Below are positions 6,806-44,505 of a stretch of DNA of 64,000 nt, piece after piece. Below the pieces are notes generated by a model. That model did not search any database and was not told where the DNA came from. It worked only from the letters and a program-made list of their open reading frames with translations. Position 1 is the stretch's first letter. The number at the start of each line of letters is the position of its first letter. A program made the translations under genes and the position numbers. This DNA is from Verrucomicrobiales bacterium (lineage in GTDB: Bacteria; Verrucomicrobiota; Verrucomicrobiia; Verrucomicrobiales; DEV007), in the NCBI GenBank assembly GCA_002698785.1, contig PAAG01000053.1:62001-126000 (forward strand), read 5' to 3'.

Positions 6806-6896
6806 GCGGTTCCGTAGTCGTTTTTCCGCCAAAAAGGCGGCGCAAAGATGGGTTCGACAATTGCGATCCTGTCCTTACCATGTCGGTCTTGAAATT

Positions 6897-7595
6897 ATGA
6901 AAAAATCTATCCCATATCTCGCGATTCTTTTCCTGACCGCTGCGCTGGTTCAGGCTGACGATTCTAAAGGCTGGACTTCACTGTTTAACGGCGAAACGCT
7001 CGAAGGTTGGAAGCACTCGACTCTTGGCGAGGCAGAGTATTCGGTCGTCGATGGTGCGATCAAGGGAATCACCGTAGAAGGAAGTCCAAATACCTTCCTG
7101 CTCAGCGAAAAAGAATATGGAGACTTCGAGCTCGAGTTTGAAGTCAAAGTCCACGACAGCCTGAACTCTGGCGTGCAAATTCGCTCACGCGAGAAAACCG
7201 AAGAAGACTTGGCTACATCCGGCAAGAATGGCAAACCGGCCAAAGATCTCAATCGCTTCTATGGACCTCAGGTAGAGATCGAAGCTTCTCCTGGCCAGGC
7301 CGGTTACATCTATGGCGAAGCAACTGGATTCGGTTGGCTTTCACCTGAGCCTCAGGACAAAGGCCATTCTCACGAACACATCAAGAACGGTGAGTGGAAC
7401 AAATACCGCATCGTTGCGAAAGGGCCTCGAATTCAGACGTTCATCAACGGAGAAAAGGTAGCTGACCTGACCCACGAAGAAATTTATAAGTCACATCCGA
7501 AGGGGCACATCGGCCTTCAAGTCCACGGAATCAAGAAGGGAACTGGCCCCTACGACGTGTATTGGAAGAATATTCGGATCAAAGAATTGGACTAA
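6897..7595 (+). CDS. Secreted DUF1080 (3-keto-disaccharide hydrolase-type) protein
   Basis: A 232-residue protein when started at the ATG at 6897, which gives a clean signal peptide (MKKSIPYLAILFLTAALVQA). The in-frame start at 6861 would place polar residues ahead of it. The mature part is a single DUF1080 beta-sandwich: GWTSLFNGETLEGWKH, FELEFEVKV, LNSGVQIRSR, YGPQVEIEASPGQAGYIYGE, WNKYRIVAKGPRIQTFINGEKVADL and a C-terminal IGLQVHG. The domain is related to concanavalin-like lectins and includes enzymes acting on 3-keto-glycosides. It is expected in the periplasm or outside the cell. It is one of three DUF1080-type genes in the window and is followed by a strong terminator. Confidence 0.88.
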   Translation: MKKSIPYLAILFLTAALVQADDSKGWTSLFNGETLEGWKHSTLGEAEYSVVDGAIKGITVEGSPNTFLLSEKEYGDFELEFEVKVHDSLNSGVQIRSREKTEEDLATSGKNGKPAKDLNRFYGPQVEIEASPGQAGYIYGEATGFGWLSPEPQDKGHSHEHIKNGEWNKYRIVAKGPRIQTFINGEKVADLTHEEIYKSHPKGHIGLQVHGIKKGTGPYDVYWKNIRIKELD

Positions 7596-36024: not shown

Positions 36025-37119
36025 ATGGCAAAAAAAGAAGGACTGGGAGAGGTCAGTGATCAGAGCCGCTTTGAAAAGGTTTTTTCAGACTCAGGTTCGG
36101 TAGATCGGTTCCGTAACGCTGTCATCGCTTGGTTCAAGGAAGAGGGGCGGGAGTACCCTTGGAGGAATACCACCGATCCGTATGCCATCCTTGTGTCTGA
36201 ATTGATGCTGCAGCAAACCCGTATCGCCACCGTGTTGGAGCGAGACTACTTCGGCCGTTGGATGCGGCGTTTCCCGGATGTCCACGCTCTGGCGAGGGCA
36301 AAAGAAGAGGAGATTCTCAAAGCATGGGAGGGCCTGGGATACTACAACAGGGCAAGGAACCTTCAAAAGGCAGCGCAGAAGGTGGTCGAAAAAGGAAAGG
36401 GTGATTTTCCAGATTCGATCGAAGAAATGGAGTCCTTGCCTGGTGTTGGGCGATATACTGCAGGCGCTGTCTTCAGTTTTGCCTACGATCGGAGGGCTCC
36501 GATCGTGGATGGGAATGTAATTCGGGTCTTTGCCCGATTGTTTGGATACGAAGAGGCAGTCGATCTGCCCGTTGCTGGCAAGCTGATGTGGAAGTGGGCA
36601 GACCTTCTAACTCCAGAAGCGCATGTGAGGGCCTACAATTCGGGGATCATGGAATTGGGGCAACGCCTTTGTGTGAGAGGAACGCCGGAATGCAGCGCGT
36701 GCCCCGTCCAAGAATTTTGTCAGGCACACTCCCGGGGAATTACCGAGCAGCTCCCCCGGAAGAAAGGGAAGGTCAAAGTCACTCTTAAGCAGGAATCCGT
36801 GGGCCTGTTCATCAAAAACGGTGAGATTTTGCTGGAAGAAGAGTCAGGCGCACGGAGAAAGGGCTTATGGAAACTTCCGGTAGTTACAAAAAGCGAGTCC
36901 GAAGACTGGGAAGAGCTATTCCGACTGCCCTATGCTATTACCCGATACCGGGTTGAGATGACTGTCTTTCGAGCCCCTCCCAACTCGAGGGAGAGAGAAG
37001 GCTGCACGAAATGGTACCCACTTTCGGGCGGCGAAAGCCTGCCGCCGCTGGGCTCTCCGTATCGGAAAGCGATACTGAAATACCTCGATATTCGTGATGA
37101 CTTGATGATGAACCGGTAA
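36025..37119 (+). CDS. mutY: Adenine DNA glycosylase MutY
   Basis: A 364-residue enzyme that removes adenine opposite 8-oxoguanine. The catalytic glutamate is in ILVSELMLQQTRI, the helix-hairpin-helix is LPGVGRYTAGAV, and the catalytic aspartate follows in PIVDGNVIRV. The iron-sulfur ligands are all present (CVRGTPECSACPVQEFC, spacing C-6-C-2-C-5-C). A C-terminal NUDIX-like domain, which reads the 8-oxoguanine strand, begins about residue 250 (KQESVGLFIKNGEILLEE). The ATG at 36025 (MAKKEGLGE) is preferred over a GTG at 35986. It stands alone, 172 bases before the next gene. Confidence 0.95.
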   Translation: MAKKEGLGEVSDQSRFEKVFSDSGSVDRFRNAVIAWFKEEGREYPWRNTTDPYAILVSELMLQQTRIATVLERDYFGRWMRRFPDVHALARAKEEEILKAWEGLGYYNRARNLQKAAQKVVEKGKGDFPDSIEEMESLPGVGRYTAGAVFSFAYDRRAPIVDGNVIRVFARLFGYEEAVDLPVAGKLMWKWADLLTPEAHVRAYNSGIMELGQRLCVRGTPECSACPVQEFCQAHSRGITEQLPRKKGKVKVTLKQESVGLFIKNGEILLEEESGARRKGLWKLPVVTKSESEDWEELFRLPYAITRYRVEMTVFRAPPNSREREGCTKWYPLSGGESLPPLGSPYRKAILKYLDIRDDLMMNR

Positions 37120-37291
37120 TTTCGAACCCCCCGAATCGGAAAATTTGGGAAGTTCGTGCTTGTTTTGCAGGAAAAAAATTTTAATTGTGATCGGTTTATT
37201 AAGAAATTGGAGTTGTTTTTGAGAGGCCCAATCGCTAGGATGAGCCCTCGGAGTCATCTCCGAATCGAACTTTAAACAAACACTCAGACTC

Positions 37292-38323
37292 ATGTGGAAA
37301 GTATTCCTTGTCATTTCAGCGGTCGTTCTCGGCGGAGCGATTTACCTGAGCTATTCGAACATGGGCCTCAAAAAAGAGAAGGCCGAAGAGGTTCAGAAAC
37401 AGAAGGACGAGTTGGCCAAAAGGCAGGGAGCCATTAAAGAGACCGAGCAGGAACTCGCTCAGATGGAGCAGTCTATCACGACTCTCAATGACGAGGCCGA
37501 GTCACTCAAGACCGAGAAAATCGATTTGGATCAGAAGGTGGTAAAAGCCGAATCTGACAAAAGAACTCAGGAGGCACAACTGGCTCAGGCAAAGGAAGAT
37601 CTCGAAAAAGCTGAGGTCATGGTAGGCGACATTCAGAAGATCGAAGCCATGCAGCGCGAAATGGCTCAGATTCGCACTCAGATCGAAGAGGCTGACATCG
37701 AGGTATCCCAGTTGGAAGGCGCAGTCGCATCGGCGCAAGTAGAGAGAGATCGTCTTGAGCGTGTCGCTCAGGAGCTCGAGGGCCTTCGGAAAGACCAGGA
37801 TTCCGGACTGATCAGGGGCGAATTTCAAAGCACCATCCAGAAGGCGTACAATCAGTGGGGATTTGTGATCGTTGAAGGCGGCAATGACCAGGGCGTGGTC
37901 GATAGGGCACAGCTTGATGTGTATCGTCGCGGACAGCCTATCTGCAAACTTCTGGTGACTTCAGTTGAGCCAGCGACTTCAGTTGGAGAGATTATTCCCG
38001 GATCACTTGCCCCTGGGCAGACAGTCCAGCAGGGCGACACGGTAGTGAAGACAGTTCGCGCCAACACAGCGGCAGCAGCAACGGATGATGCTGCTGCGGC
38101 ACCATCCGCTCCGGCCGGCGGTGGATCAGCGCCTGCTGCTCCGACCCAGCCAGCTGAAAGCGATCCTTTCGGCGGCGGTGGCGGTGGAATGTCTGAGGAA
38201 CCGGCTGCAGATCCATTTGGTGGAGGCGGAATGAGCGCACCTGCAGACAGCGAGCCTGATCCCTTTGGGGGCGGTGGCGCAATGGACGGTGGTGGTTCTG
38301 CTGAGCCAGATCCGTTCCAGTAA
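37292..38323 (+). CDS. Membrane-anchored coiled-coil protein with C-terminal DPFGGGG repeats
   Basis: A 343-residue protein: a membrane helix (residues 3-22), a long coiled coil (about 28-175), and a small beta domain starting at NQWGFVIVEGGNDQGVV and running through GQPICKLLVTSV to LAPGQTVQQGDTVV. An alanine/proline linker follows, then a glycine-rich end with repeated DPFGGGG units (four DPF motifs). The helix, coiled coil and beta domain recur in the same order in the next gene. The coiled coil and beta domain should face the periplasm. I do not recognise a named family; MreC and other envelope scaffolds have a comparable plan but no clear sequence match. Confidence 0.75.
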   Translation: MWKVFLVISAVVLGGAIYLSYSNMGLKKEKAEEVQKQKDELAKRQGAIKETEQELAQMEQSITTLNDEAESLKTEKIDLDQKVVKAESDKRTQEAQLAQAKEDLEKAEVMVGDIQKIEAMQREMAQIRTQIEEADIEVSQLEGAVASAQVERDRLERVAQELEGLRKDQDSGLIRGEFQSTIQKAYNQWGFVIVEGGNDQGVVDRAQLDVYRRGQPICKLLVTSVEPATSVGEIIPGSLAPGQTVQQGDTVVKTVRANTAAAATDDAAAAPSAPAGGGSAPAAPTQPAESDPFGGGGGGMSEEPAADPFGGGGMSAPADSEPDPFGGGGAMDGGGSAEPDPFQ

Positions 38324-38365
38324 TTAGCGGATTGAATTGGAAGGAAATTTTACACGGAAGTTGCT

Positions 38366-39157
38366 ATGAAGAAATTTGTGATGATCCTCGCGGGCTTGGC
38401 CATGTTGGGTGCCGCAGTTGTGGGTGTTCTCAACAAGCAGGATGTAGAAGTAATTAACAAGGATCTCGACAATGTTCGCGCCGAGGTGAAGACAGAGACC
38501 GAGAAACTTGGTGAGCTCGAAGACAAAAGGGATGATGCCGCTGAGCGTGAGACTCAGGCAAAAGATGCCCGGAATCAGGCTGCTGCAGCAGTTGAGGGCG
38601 TTAAACAGAACCTTAAGGTCATTGAACGCGCGTTGGAGGATGTGTCTGCAGAGCTGAAGACGACAGAGATCAAGCAGAAGGAAATCGACCTTGCTGTCAA
38701 AAAGCAGTTCCCAACTGGTGAGATCCAGTCAGTGAACGATCTGGAGATGAGGCTGACCATGCTTAAGGAAACGCTCACTCAAAAGCAGAACGAGAAATCC
38801 ACTCTCAATACCCAGCTCACACAGGCTGCAGAAGCAAAGCAGGTTCAGGTGGCTAAGGTGCAGGAGGAAGAAAAATTCCAACTGCAGCGTGCTCAGAAAC
38901 TCGCTTTGAATGGGCTCGAAGCTACTATCATCGCGGTGAACAAGGAATGGGGATTTGTCATGATCAATGCTGGTCGTCAGCACGGCGTCTCCGGTGATTC
39001 CTCACTCTTGGTTAAGAGAGGAAACACTCGTATCGCTCGTCTGCGAATTGTGAATCTCGAAGACTCTTTCGTCACGGCAGACGTCGTTGATGAGTCGGTG
39101 GTCAGAGGTGTTGAAGTGCAGCCTGGCGACCGTGTGATTTTCGAGAATGCCCGATAA
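38366..39157 (+). CDS. Membrane-anchored coiled-coil protein, paralogue of the preceding gene
   Basis: A 263-residue protein with a signal-anchor helix (residues 4-22), a long coiled coil of charged heptads (about 27-180) and a beta domain KEWGFVMINAGRQHGVSGDSS, then RIARLRIVNLEDSFV and VQPGDRVIF. The last part matches the beta domain of the preceding protein: WGFV, a dG/GV turn, a basic-to-hydrophobic strand, then PGD/QGD. It lacks the DPFGGGG tail. The two lie 42 bases apart, so they are surely one operon, with the small lipoprotein as third gene. They may form a complex across the inner membrane and periplasm; that is inference. Confidence 0.75.
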   Translation: MKKFVMILAGLAMLGAAVVGVLNKQDVEVINKDLDNVRAEVKTETEKLGELEDKRDDAAERETQAKDARNQAAAAVEGVKQNLKVIERALEDVSAELKTTEIKQKEIDLAVKKQFPTGEIQSVNDLEMRLTMLKETLTQKQNEKSTLNTQLTQAAEAKQVQVAKVQEEEKFQLQRAQKLALNGLEATIIAVNKEWGFVMINAGRQHGVSGDSSLLVKRGNTRIARLRIVNLEDSFVTADVVDESVVRGVEVQPGDRVIFENAR

Positions 39158-39190
39158 TCGGGAACCGCTCACCAGCAAATACTGCTTCAG

Positions 39191-39373
39191 ATGAAATCGA
39201 TCCTCCTTACCGTATTTTCTACTCTTGCCTTTGCCTTCCTTATCAGTTCCTGCGAGACTCTCGATAAAGGACCTGAACCTCCGCGGGAAAGATTGAGCAG
39301 CATGCCTCACAACATGCCTCAAGCGTGGGAAGGTTCAGCGGGGCTCCCTGGCTTGGCAGGTGGAGGCTACTGA
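39191..39373 (+). CDS. Small lipoprotein in the coiled-coil operon
   Basis: A 60-residue protein with a lipoprotein signal and lipobox ISSC (cysteine 21). The mature part is about 40 residues, rich in proline and methionine (SSMPHNMPQAWEGS) and ending in glycine (LAGGGY). There is no known domain. It begins 33 bases after the stop of the second coiled-coil gene and is almost certainly co-transcribed. Its fixed position suggests it is a partner of the two membrane coiled-coil proteins. Confidence 0.7.
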   Translation: MKSILLTVFSTLAFAFLISSCETLDKGPEPPRERLSSMPHNMPQAWEGSAGLPGLAGGGY

Positions 39374-39418
39374 TAGAAATTTTTCATCGCTTTTATACTT
39401 CTCGAAAACTGTTCTGCT

Positions 39419-39886
39419 ATGTCTCAAGGAAACGCGACTCTTCCCGAAATGGGCTTTGCCTCGGATTTTGATTCCGAAGAGCGGACTCAGTTAGGAAACT
39501 TCGGAGAATTCATTCTCCTTCAGGATGGGGAAGCGCTGATTACCGAGGGGCAAACGCAGGACTCACTCTTCATGGTGGTTTCTGGGACGTTTCACGTGCA
39601 GACGGAAATGACCGGTCGCTCTGTTCTTTTGGGAACGGTGAAAGCGGGCGATACCATCGGCGAAGTGAATATTTTTGATCCCGGCAACGCGAGTGCCAGT
39701 GTTGTCAGTCGATCGCTCTCTGAGGTGTGGCGTATCGACCGAAACAGACTCGAGCAGTATCTTGAGGCTCACCCCCGGACAGCAGCACGCCTGCTGGTGA
39801 ATGTTGCTACCCAATTGAGCAAGCGACTCAGAAAAACAAATGAGAAAGTGGCCATGGCAAGGGAGGCCATGATGGATTCGTTCTAA
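39419..39886 (+). CDS. Cyclic-nucleotide-binding-type domain protein without the phosphate-binding arginine
   Basis: A 155-residue protein made of one cNMP-type beta roll: ILLQDGEALITEGQTQDSLF, VSGTFHVQTEM, GTVKAGDTIGEVNIFDPGNA, then a helix EVWRIDRNRLEQYL. In true cAMP/cGMP binders the phosphate-binding cassette has a GE followed by an arginine and a small residue. Here GEVNIFDPGNASASV has no arginine at that place, so nucleotide binding is doubtful. There is no DNA-binding domain after it. It may be a regulatory subunit of another protein. It stands alone, 45 bases after the lipoprotein gene. Confidence 0.75.
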   Translation: MSQGNATLPEMGFASDFDSEERTQLGNFGEFILLQDGEALITEGQTQDSLFMVVSGTFHVQTEMTGRSVLLGTVKAGDTIGEVNIFDPGNASASVVSRSLSEVWRIDRNRLEQYLEAHPRTAARLLVNVATQLSKRLRKTNEKVAMAREAMMDSF

Positions 39887-39964
39887 CCGGAATTCGGAAA
39901 GAACACTCCTTCCGGTGATGACCCTTTGAACTGATAGGGCCTCACAAGCGGCATAGAAATACGA

Positions 39965-40366
39965 ATGCTTGAACCTTTGACATTGCCCTTTGCTCCTGCC
40001 GACGATTTTCTTTCGTCATTTATTTTGTTCTTCGCTCTTTCTATTGGCCATGCTTTTGCAGATTTTCCTCTGCAGGGCGATTTCCTCTCTCGAGGGAAAA
40101 ACCGTCACATGGAGCCTCCAAGGCTTGCGGACGGGAAAGAAAGTCCCAGTAATCTCTGGATGTGGTTGATGAGTGCCCATTGCCTCATTCACGCAGGGTT
40201 TGTCTGGCTCATTTCAGGGTTCTTCATTTTTGCTTTGGCCGAATTTGTCCTCCACTGGCTGATCGATGTTCTAAAATGCGAAGGTCGTACTTCCTTTGCT
40301 ACCGATCAGTGGCTTCATCTCATTTCGAAGGCGGCGTACGTGGTTATCATCTGGCTTTGGATGTAG
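39965..40366 (+). CDS. DUF3307 family membrane protein
   Basis: A 133-residue protein with three or four helices. It has the DUF3307 pattern: an N-terminal hydrophobic HAFADFPLQGDFLSRGKN with the conserved ADF.LQ core, a central HCLIHAGFVWLISGF, FVLHWLIDVLKCEG, and ATDQWLHLISKAAYVVI at the end. The function of this family is unknown. The gene lies between the cNMP-type gene and the S41 protease gene without obvious operon structure. Confidence 0.85.
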   Translation: MLEPLTLPFAPADDFLSSFILFFALSIGHAFADFPLQGDFLSRGKNRHMEPPRLADGKESPSNLWMWLMSAHCLIHAGFVWLISGFFIFALAEFVLHWLIDVLKCEGRTSFATDQWLHLISKAAYVVIIWLWM

Positions 40367-42957: not shown

Positions 42958-44505
42958 ATGGCTTCCCGAAACCCCCTGCCTGGGATTGCTGCGCTAGTCG
43001 CGGCGATCGTTTCCATCTGGTCGCATCTCGCGTTTGCAGAGGAAGGATTTGTATCAATTTTTGATGGGAAGACTCTGGAAGGGTGGGTTGGTGATTCGTC
43101 ACTTTGGCGAGCTGAGGACGGAATGATTGTGGGGGAAACAAAAGAAAACTCACCCATAGAATACAATCAGTTTCTGACATGGGCCGAAGGGGAGGTTGAT
43201 GACTTCGAACTGAAGGTGGAATTCAAGATAGAGAGTGGGAATTCCGGAATCCAATTCAGGAGCTTTGCTCTCGAATCCCCCAATGCAGTGGGGGGATACC
43301 AGGCAGATATCGACGCTGCCGGGAAATGGAGCGGTACATGCTATGGAGAGAAGTTTCGCGGCATCCTCGCAAAGCGTGGCGAGAGTGTTGTCATAGGGGA
43401 GAATGGAAAGCCCGGGAAAGTAGATTCTGTCGGTGACCCGAAAGAATTGGGCGAGCCCGTTAAGGCTGGCGAATGGAACGAATACCATATTGTTGCACGT
43501 GGTTTTACCATCGTTCAGAAAATCAACGGACAGTTGATGTCACGGGTAGAAGACGCTGATGCAGACTCCCGCCGGCGCGCTGGATTACTGGCTTTCCAAT
43601 TGCATAAGGGACCACCAATGAAAGTCTCTTTTCGAGATGTTCGCCTGAAGCGGCTCCCTCTGGATGATGTGAAAAAGGTCGTATTCGTAGCGGGCAAACC
43701 GAGCCACGCTCCACGGCACCACGAGCACAATGCAGGCTGTCTTCTCCTCGCTCGACTTCTCAACGAGACTTACCCTGACAAAGTGCTTGCTACTGTTTAC
43801 CGAAGCGGATGGCCGTCGGACAAGACCGCGTTTCGTAATGCGGATGCAGTTGTAATGTTCGCAGACGGGGGGCAGAGGCATCCTGCGTTTTTCCATCTGG
43901 AAACACTGCGCGATCTCCGTGAAAGAAACGTTGGTCTCGGTGCCATCCACTACGCCGTCGAGATGGTCCCGGGAGAAAGCAACGAGACGTTGATGGAGAG
44001 CATTGGTGGCGCATTCGAAATTCATTATTCAGTGAATCCTCATTGGACGGCGTCATTTACCAGTTTTCCAGACCATCCCGTTTCCCGCGGGGTAGAGCCA
44101 TTTGAAGTTCAGGACGAATGGTATTTCAACATGCGGTTTACTGACCGAGAAGAGGCGCTGACACCCATTTTAAGTGCGGTGCCTCCAGCCTCCACGATGG
44201 AGCGTGCGGATGGTCATCATTCTGGAAATCCTGCGGTTCGAAAAATGGTCGAAGCAAAGCAACCGCAACATCTTTGCTGGGTCTACGAAACGGAGAAAGG
44301 AACTCGGGGATTTGGCTTCACTGGAGCGCACTTCCATGACAACTGGGCCAACGACGAATTTCGTAAAGTCGTTTTGAATGCCATTGGCTGGATCTCACAT
44401 GTCGAGATTCCAGAAGGAGGGCTGGATACACCTACTCCTCAACAGGCGGATCTGGATGCAAATCTCGATCCTAAGGAGTCCCCGCAACGAAAGAAAAAGA
44501 AATAA
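42958..44505 (+). CDS. DUF1080-ThuA fusion, secreted
   Basis: A 515-residue exported protein (signal peptide about residues 1-27). The first half is DUF1080: FVSIFDGKTLEGWVGDS, DDFELKVEFKIESGNSGI, GGYQADIDAAGKWSGTCYGE and EWNEYHIVARGFTIVQKING. The second half, from about residue 238, is ThuA-like: KVVFVAGKPSHAPRHHEHNA, ADAVVMFADGG, the histidine in IHYAVEMVPG, and FGFTGAHFHDNWANDEFRK. ThuA homologues act with a Gfo/Idh/MocA enzyme on 3-keto-trehalose. The C-terminus is lysine-rich. The next gene is exactly such an oxidoreductase, 43 bases downstream. Confidence 0.9.
   Translation: MASRNPLPGIAALVAAIVSIWSHLAFAEEGFVSIFDGKTLEGWVGDSSLWRAEDGMIVGETKENSPIEYNQFLTWAEGEVDDFELKVEFKIESGNSGIQFRSFALESPNAVGGYQADIDAAGKWSGTCYGEKFRGILAKRGESVVIGENGKPGKVDSVGDPKELGEPVKAGEWNEYHIVARGFTIVQKINGQLMSRVEDADADSRRRAGLLAFQLHKGPPMKVSFRDVRLKRLPLDDVKKVVFVAGKPSHAPRHHEHNAGCLLLARLLNETYPDKVLATVYRSGWPSDKTAFRNADAVVMFADGGQRHPAFFHLETLRDLRERNVGLGAIHYAVEMVPGESNETLMESIGGAFEIHYSVNPHWTASFTSFPDHPVSRGVEPFEVQDEWYFNMRFTDREEALTPILSAVPPASTMERADGHHSGNPAVRKMVEAKQPQHLCWVYETEKGTRGFGFTGAHFHDNWANDEFRKVVLNAIGWISHVEIPEGGLDTPTPQQADLDANLDPKESPQRKKKK

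Follow-up and report, generated by a model that had tools for sequence, protein, structure and literature searches.

A membrane-anchored rod protein and a small lipoprotein encoded together across much of the Verrucomicrobiota: a candidate connection between the inner and outer membranes

Introduction

The Verrucomicrobiota include the gut bacterium Akkermansia, and to our knowledge the cell envelope of this phylum has been little described at the molecular level. Among envelope proteins described in other bacteria, MreC is composed of a membrane helix, a helix and a small beta domain, and LpoA and LpoB are outer-membrane activators that reach a peptidoglycan synthase from the other side. A common barrel topology is reported, in the excerpted text of PMC4446572, for the C-terminal domain of FlgT, the N-domain of the F1 beta subunit and the barrel of tripartite-pump adaptors. 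According to the excerpt of PMC10567701, the small lipoprotein LptM binds LptDE, and CT421.2 is named as a PVC signature protein in an excerpt of PMC3444138.

Here we describe three genes, P1, P2 and P3, from a Verrucomicrobiales bacterium; the window, i.e., the whole stretch of DNA that was analysed, measures 64,000 nucleotides. Judging from sequence comparisons and predicted structures, the trio may constitute a so far undescribed connection between the inner and outer membranes, and it recurs across much of the phylum. No description of such a module or of its motif was seen in the titles and abstract openings listed by literature searches, and the match obtained with the motif letters was an unrelated lizard paper.

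Organization of the Locus

P1, P2 and P3 are consecutive ORFs on the + strand, separated by gaps of 42 and 33 bases in the ORF list of the window (Table 1), where the earlier note had placed a three-gene operon. No terminator-like site was found on that strand within 37050-40000, hence none between the three genes. No Pfam or NCBIfam model exceeded its cut-off on P1, P2 or P3, which is consistent with the earlier note's remark that no named system is known to have this composition. Matches of P1 and P2 below the cut-off were mostly to coiled-coil families, P1 also matched TIGR01843 (HlyD family) at E 0.62 over the coil region only, and 21 aligned rods hit scattered Pfam coiled-coil families, each matching 1 or 2 members. 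Sequence searches of the PDB with P1, P2 and a P2 profile returned generic helical matches among those listed (in one search, the best 60 of 334).

Table 1. Features of the P1-P2-P3 locus, in window positions
Feature	Position	Strand	Basis
P1, membrane-anchored rod protein, C-terminal beta-barrel and DPFGG tail	37292..38323	+	ORF, 343 aa
P1 beta-barrel, residues 175-256	37814..38059	+	Structural alignment of AlphaFold2 model
P1 disordered Gly/Ala/Pro-rich tail, four DPF motifs	38060..38320	+	pLDDT ~40 over most; motif count
P2, membrane-anchored rod protein, P1 paralogue	38366..39157	+	ORF, 263 aa; BLASTP to P1
P2 beta-barrel, residues 183-262	38912..39151	+	VIA-align and Foldseek of model
P3, lipoprotein of 60 aa, 40 of them in the mature part	39191..39373	+	ORF; 30-row alignment
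P3 conserved peptide SSMPHNMPQAWEG	39296..39334	+	Column counts over the 152/164 P3 ORFs fitting the expression used

Downstream of the trio, the window encodes a cNMP-binding protein, a DUF3307 protein, an S41 peptidase and TsaD; among the loci listed, these neighbours recur in the genus and not in other families. Elsewhere in the window, two secreted-looking proteins (42958-44505 and 6861-7595) carry FDGKTLEGW / FNGETLEGW-type sequences and resemble what we take to be DUF1080-type domains.

Architecture of the Rod Proteins

The paralogy proposed for the two larger proteins is borne out by BLASTP (E 5e-10 over 145 columns) and by genome searches, in which each protein also matches the gene of the other. 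Both start with a hydrophobic stretch (maximum 19-residue hydropathy 1.99 in P1 and 2.58 in P2), as expected from the N-terminal membrane helix that had been assigned to them. AlphaFold2 predicts helices at residues 2-111 and 114-171 of P1 and at residues 2-114 and 123-181 of P2, i.e., about 150 residues of helix per rod between the membrane helix and a six-stranded barrel. If uninterrupted, 150-160 residues of helix would measure about 22-24 nm, and the predicted architecture is what one would expect if the rod had its anchor in the inner membrane and its barrel far away from it. Among 241 homologue ORFs, the distance from the N-terminus to the WGF-type motif of the barrel has a median of 192 and quartiles of 189 and 196, in a set that was filtered for full-length matches, which favours constant lengths, and that includes one row with a meaningless position (-71). 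Two relatives, in L274 and L275, are longer (406 and 414 aa).

The earlier note spoke of a long coiled coil. A long helix is indeed predicted in both proteins, but the heptad-like periodicity of a coiled coil stands out from that of shuffled sequences in some segments only: out of 1000 shuffles, a signal as high was reached by 6 for P2 24-114, 20 for P1 114-171, 68 for P1 24-111 and 417 for P2 123-181. For this reason, "long helical rod" is the safer description. Furthermore, a low-confidence break of the helix near residues 112-122 in both models makes it conceivable that P1 and P2 fold back as a hairpin too short to cross the periplasm. Mean-field coevolution analysis for such an antiparallel hairpin, a weak test carried out on 238 non-redundant rods (effective number 207), gave 160 and 213 as the top anti-diagonal sums; the sum 235, close to the 236 expected from a turn near column 118, ranked ninth with a score of 2.4, which is at chance level for the many sums tested.

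The beta domain said to be shared by both proteins is found in each as a barrel, which starts about 12 residues ahead of the WGFV sequence taken as its beginning; in P1, residues 181-250 were modelled with a pLDDT of 93-96. With VIA-align, the P1 barrel matches chain 0 of 8z5n from the LPHT ring, which we take to be the FlgT chain of that ring (Z 11.6, 77 residues, rmsd 2.0), and FlgT 3w1e (Z 10.1, 74 residues, rmsd 1.8). The P2 barrel matches chain 0 of 8z5n (Z 11.3, 74 residues, rmsd 1.8), and Foldseek relates P2 to 3w1e with an E of 1.6e-4. F1-ATPase rows reach Z ~10 with either barrel, so that the best matches, FlgT C-terminal domain and F1-ATPase N-domain, are nearly tied (Z 9.9-11.6; rmsd 1.7-2.8 except for one row at 12.4). 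Because the F1-ATPase N-domains score nearly as high, the modelled barrel resembles both domains by fold only. While sharing this six-stranded fold with the C-terminal domain of FlgT, a component of the flagellar H-ring, P1 and P2 carry a long helical rod and a membrane anchor where FlgT has its remainder. Likewise, they recall tripartite-pump adaptors of the HlyD/MacA type by their helical part and by a barrel of the topology that the excerpt of PMC4446572 ascribes to adaptors, but their models have a single beta domain and lack a second (lipoyl) one. The FlgT_C profile (PF16538) had no match in the genome of the window at E<=10, and in 14 control genomes it gave only sub-threshold matches, in 6 of them.

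The glycine-rich tail with its four DPF motifs occurs in P1 and not in P2, as the earlier note had observed for this pair, but it is not constant: the P1 proteins of five loci of the same order (L072, L075, L077, L082 and L084) are devoid of it, which makes the tail a lineage-specific trait.

The Lipoprotein and Its Conserved Peptide

Assignment of the third gene to a 60-residue lipoprotein stands, the lipobox cysteine (C21) being invariant in an alignment of 30 P3 rows. Searched against Pfam and NCBIfam, these rows yielded only scattered weak matches, those to any lipoprotein family involving 1-2 of the 30 members, and no LptM-named family at E<=0.01, in libraries that may hold no such model. 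P3 is akin to LptM and other small outer-membrane lipoproteins in having a lipobox followed by a short peptide of ~40 residues, and differs from LptM-type lipoproteins by a conserved peptide of its own. The consensus S-x-[LIM]-P-[WH]-N-x-P-x-x-W-E-G lies in the short mature part, with mostly W at the [WH] position elsewhere than in the window. In the 152 ORFs fitting an expression that fixes the first proline (12 of the 164 P3 ORFs did not fit and were left out, and close relatives are included), this proline is followed by W (99) or H (39), N (128) and the second P (113), and the motif ends with W (101), E (120) and G (93).

The residue at position +2 after the first lipobox-like cysteine is never Asp in 163 P3 ORFs. 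In E. coli, the absence of Asp at +2 fits sorting of a lipoprotein to the outer membrane, and by this rule the +2 residues of P3 fit a placement in that membrane.

Conservation in the Order and Beyond

In a sample of 36 genomes of the order, own genome included, searches with P1 and with P2 each found matches in 34, and the two genes are adjacent in 33. The match in G018, a genome 52% complete, is a fragment of P1 only, its P2 not being found, and no P1 or P2 match was obtained in G002 and G019 (75% and 77% complete). P3 follows P1-P2 in 28 of the 29 order-level trio loci (the window and L062-L089; the paralogue loci L090 and L091 were left out of the count), and in the exceptional locus, L074, the contig ends 4 bases past P2. 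Within this count, P2 was entered in the P1 slot of L073, where P1 also has a match of its own, and a frameshift divides the P2 gene of L071 (G022). A search of other genomes for the trio, as proposed in the earlier note, thus finds the homologues together, and within the order the trio behaves as a conserved unit. In a contig scan with a pattern drawn from the P2 sequences of the order itself, the best 80 of 137 relatives were all titled Verrucomicrobiota and included Verrucomicrobiales such as Akkermansia muciniphila, Prosthecobacter debontii, Luteolibacter marinus and Verrucomicrobium. On contig C1 of G119, for instance, P1 occupies 1478001-1478747, P2 1478807-1479607 and P3 1479698-1479898.

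Beyond the order, the P2 profile matches 214 of 237 genomes of the class at E<=1e-3, and a broader rod profile matches 277 of 288 genomes of the phylum at the same threshold, weak rod matches possibly being other helical proteins. The P3 profile comprises 30 rows taken from some of the same genomes that were later searched and, having been built from P3s located beside rods, may favour linked P3s. It matches 222 of 288 genomes of the phylum at E<=1e-3, mostly once per genome; in the class, its best match reaches E<=1e-3 in 225 of 237 genomes, in a table run at E<=0.1 where cross-matches to signal peptides are common. As far as these profile matches tell, P3 is the most widespread piece of the module.

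Rod and P3 genes are tightly linked. Among the matches listed, P3 lies at most 562 bases downstream of a rod gene on the same strand in 152 of 157 genomes (119/123 in the class and 33/34 in other classes), with a median gap of 82.5; in the other five, the listed P3 match lies away from the rod, that of G387 being a partial match. Outside these 157, again among the matches listed, 73 genomes have P3 and no rod match and 23 show the reverse. Four of these 23 rod-only genomes were read: a P3-like ORF is adjacent in G267, G272 and G410 (17.6, 28.5 and 19.0 bits), and none was seen in G280. Twenty loci had been fetched on their rod match before the P3 profile existed, and P3 lies downstream in 18 of them: in 17 of the 18 that belong to other orders of the class, and in 1 of the 2 that belong to the order of the window (missing in L146 and L155). 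In 17 of the 18 loci from other orders, the stretch contains a single rod gene. Of the composition given in the earlier note, the lipoprotein is therefore conserved with the rods, but a pair of paralogues is dispensable. The remaining neighbour genes differ between many of the rod-P3 loci. No protein related to the L138 rod was encoded in plasmid records at E<=0.01.

A rod is not always recognisable beside P3. Eighteen P3 loci that lacked a listed rod match were read (16 of the 73 genomes mentioned above, plus G051 and G122), and a recognisable rod neighbour is absent in 14 and present in G122, G140, G225 and G340. In G051 and G059, no rod match exists anywhere in the genome at E<=1e-3, and the former has kept P3 in a genome of 915,884 bp. 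In both, P3 lies beside genes that by eye resemble Fur, glycosyltransferase, RuvC and LipB genes, the same row being found in L138 with a rod gene in between. G113 (2.5 Mb), which bears the same genus label as G051 and G059, has a rod gene on another contig than P3. P3 retained in such settings must therefore have some value without an adjacent rod, a finding that weighs more than any other here against a strict tether.

Proposed Mechanism and Alternatives

The reading that we tentatively favour, at somewhat short of even confidence, is a Verrucomicrobiota envelope module in which the barrel of the rod docks on the P3 peptide to form a trans-envelope tether or spacer. The rod protein, encoded by one gene in most other orders sampled and by two in the order of the window, would be anchored in the inner membrane through its N-terminal helix, with about 150 helical residues protruding into the periplasm and the FlgT-C-like six-stranded barrel at their tip. 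After export and lipidation, P3 would reside in the outer membrane with about 40 residues exposed to the periplasm, among which the P-[WH]-N-x-P-x-x-W-E-G peptide would serve as docking ligand for the barrel. In lineages with two rod genes, P1 and P2 would assemble into a hetero-oligomeric rod. This tether reading is motivated by the linkage of rod and P3 genes among the matches listed and by the narrow spread of rod lengths in full-length matches. In a bolder and rather improbable version, P3 would be a strongly retained, phylum-wide outer-membrane receptor or assembly factor of a bridge with the barrel-tipped rod, P-W-N-x-P-x-x-W-E-G would be its recognition code, and the bridge would replace the tethers of Proteobacteria.

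Since P3 persists where no adjacent rod is recognisable, it could instead act independently as an outer-membrane assembly factor, like LptM for LptD or an accessory of BAM, with the rod as a second component of that envelope process that need not bind P3 and that was moved or lost in some lineages. We consider this unlikely, yet the strongest of the alternatives: G051 retains P3 and no detectable rod, its P3 neighbourhood equals the L138 row minus the intervening rod gene, and LptM offers a precedent of a small lipoprotein that binds LptDE, according to the excerpt of PMC10567701. LptD (PF04453) was matched in 8 of 13 genomes at E<=0.01, with G051 over the cut-off and G059 under it, but was not detected in G000, G030, G113, G288 and G447, all of which have P3, and where divergence could hide it. 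Moreover, an assembly factor independent of the rod would leave the pairing in 152 of 157 genomes calling for an explanation, and none of the 30 P3 rows led to an LptM-named family, if such a model is present in the libraries at all. Alternatively, the rod might organise peptidoglycan synthesis as MreC does, with P3 as an outer-membrane activator of the synthase in the manner of LpoA/LpoB, a proposal that we regard as distinctly improbable. P1 and P2 do share the order of membrane helix, helix and small beta domain with MreC, and Foldseek relates P2 to MreC 2j5u with an E of 6.8e-4, but at an rmsd of 18 over 106 columns, and the rods have one barrel and a much longer helix than MreC. The MreC profile (PF04085) had no match at the trio locus at E<=1, nor is it among the Pfam families of P1 and P2 at E<=1; the single match in the genome of the window lies elsewhere, in a separate MreC (C27:53857-54318, E 9.6e-33). 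No MreC row appears among the best 50 VIA-align matches listed for the two barrels, although the fold may still be MreC-like, and no cell-wall gene was recognised by eye beside the module among the loci listed.

Rods acting as adaptor- or FlgT-like subunits of a transport or ring structure, with P3 as their outer-membrane anchor, seem very improbable. Such a structure would accord with the barrel fold common to FlgT-C and tripartite-pump adaptors (excerpt of PMC4446572) and with the resemblance of helix plus barrel to an adaptor arm; against it stand the FlgT_C profile without a match in the genome, the single beta domain per model, and the lack of any transporter or outer-membrane channel recognised by eye as a constant neighbour among the loci listed. 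The presence of the module in most sampled genomes of the phylum and the retention of P3 in a 0.92-Mb genome point to the module as a promising candidate for a central role in the envelope. For the tether or spacer that we favour, the short conserved peptide of P3 provides a direct and testable binding hypothesis.

Origin of the Rod Pair and Related Barrel Proteins

A tree of 61 hand-picked rod rows, unrooted (its drawn root is arbitrary) and with long branches, L084 above all, places the 17 P1 rows in one group (support 100/99) and the 17 P2 rows in another (98/96). P1 and P2 are thus two distinct rod lineages in the sequence tree, and the pair therefore predates the divergence of the sampled families of the order. 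In the unrooted tree, however drawn, the P1 group does not adjoin the P2 group, and the duplication may go back beyond the order and have been followed by loss in other lineages. In L150 and in L267, each of the two tandem rods has the other as its closest relative, and the rods paired in L269 and L295 fall in a clade of their own; tandem rod pairs therefore arose more than once. The mutually closest partners in L150 and L267, together with the well-supported P1 and P2 groups, fit repeated pairing of rods.

Other proteins with the barrel were encountered in the order. Fourteen loci from 12 of its genomes (L092-L105) encode barrel proteins of about 200-320 aa, with no P3-like lipoprotein seen adjacent. 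In an Akkermansia-type genus, a single 235-aa rod-barrel paralogue is embedded in the S10 ribosomal operon, flanked by rpsS and rplV (L091 3921-4628; L306-L321). S19 is encoded upstream in 16 of 16 distinct genomes, and L22 was recognised by pattern downstream in 15; 51 of 59 genomes of the genus match this paralogue at E<=1e-3, some weakly and apparently to the trio proteins. Finally, in a genus relative of the window (G005), L090 784-6690 is a 1968-aa ORF containing the same barrel, with 41% identity to residues 139-258 of P1.
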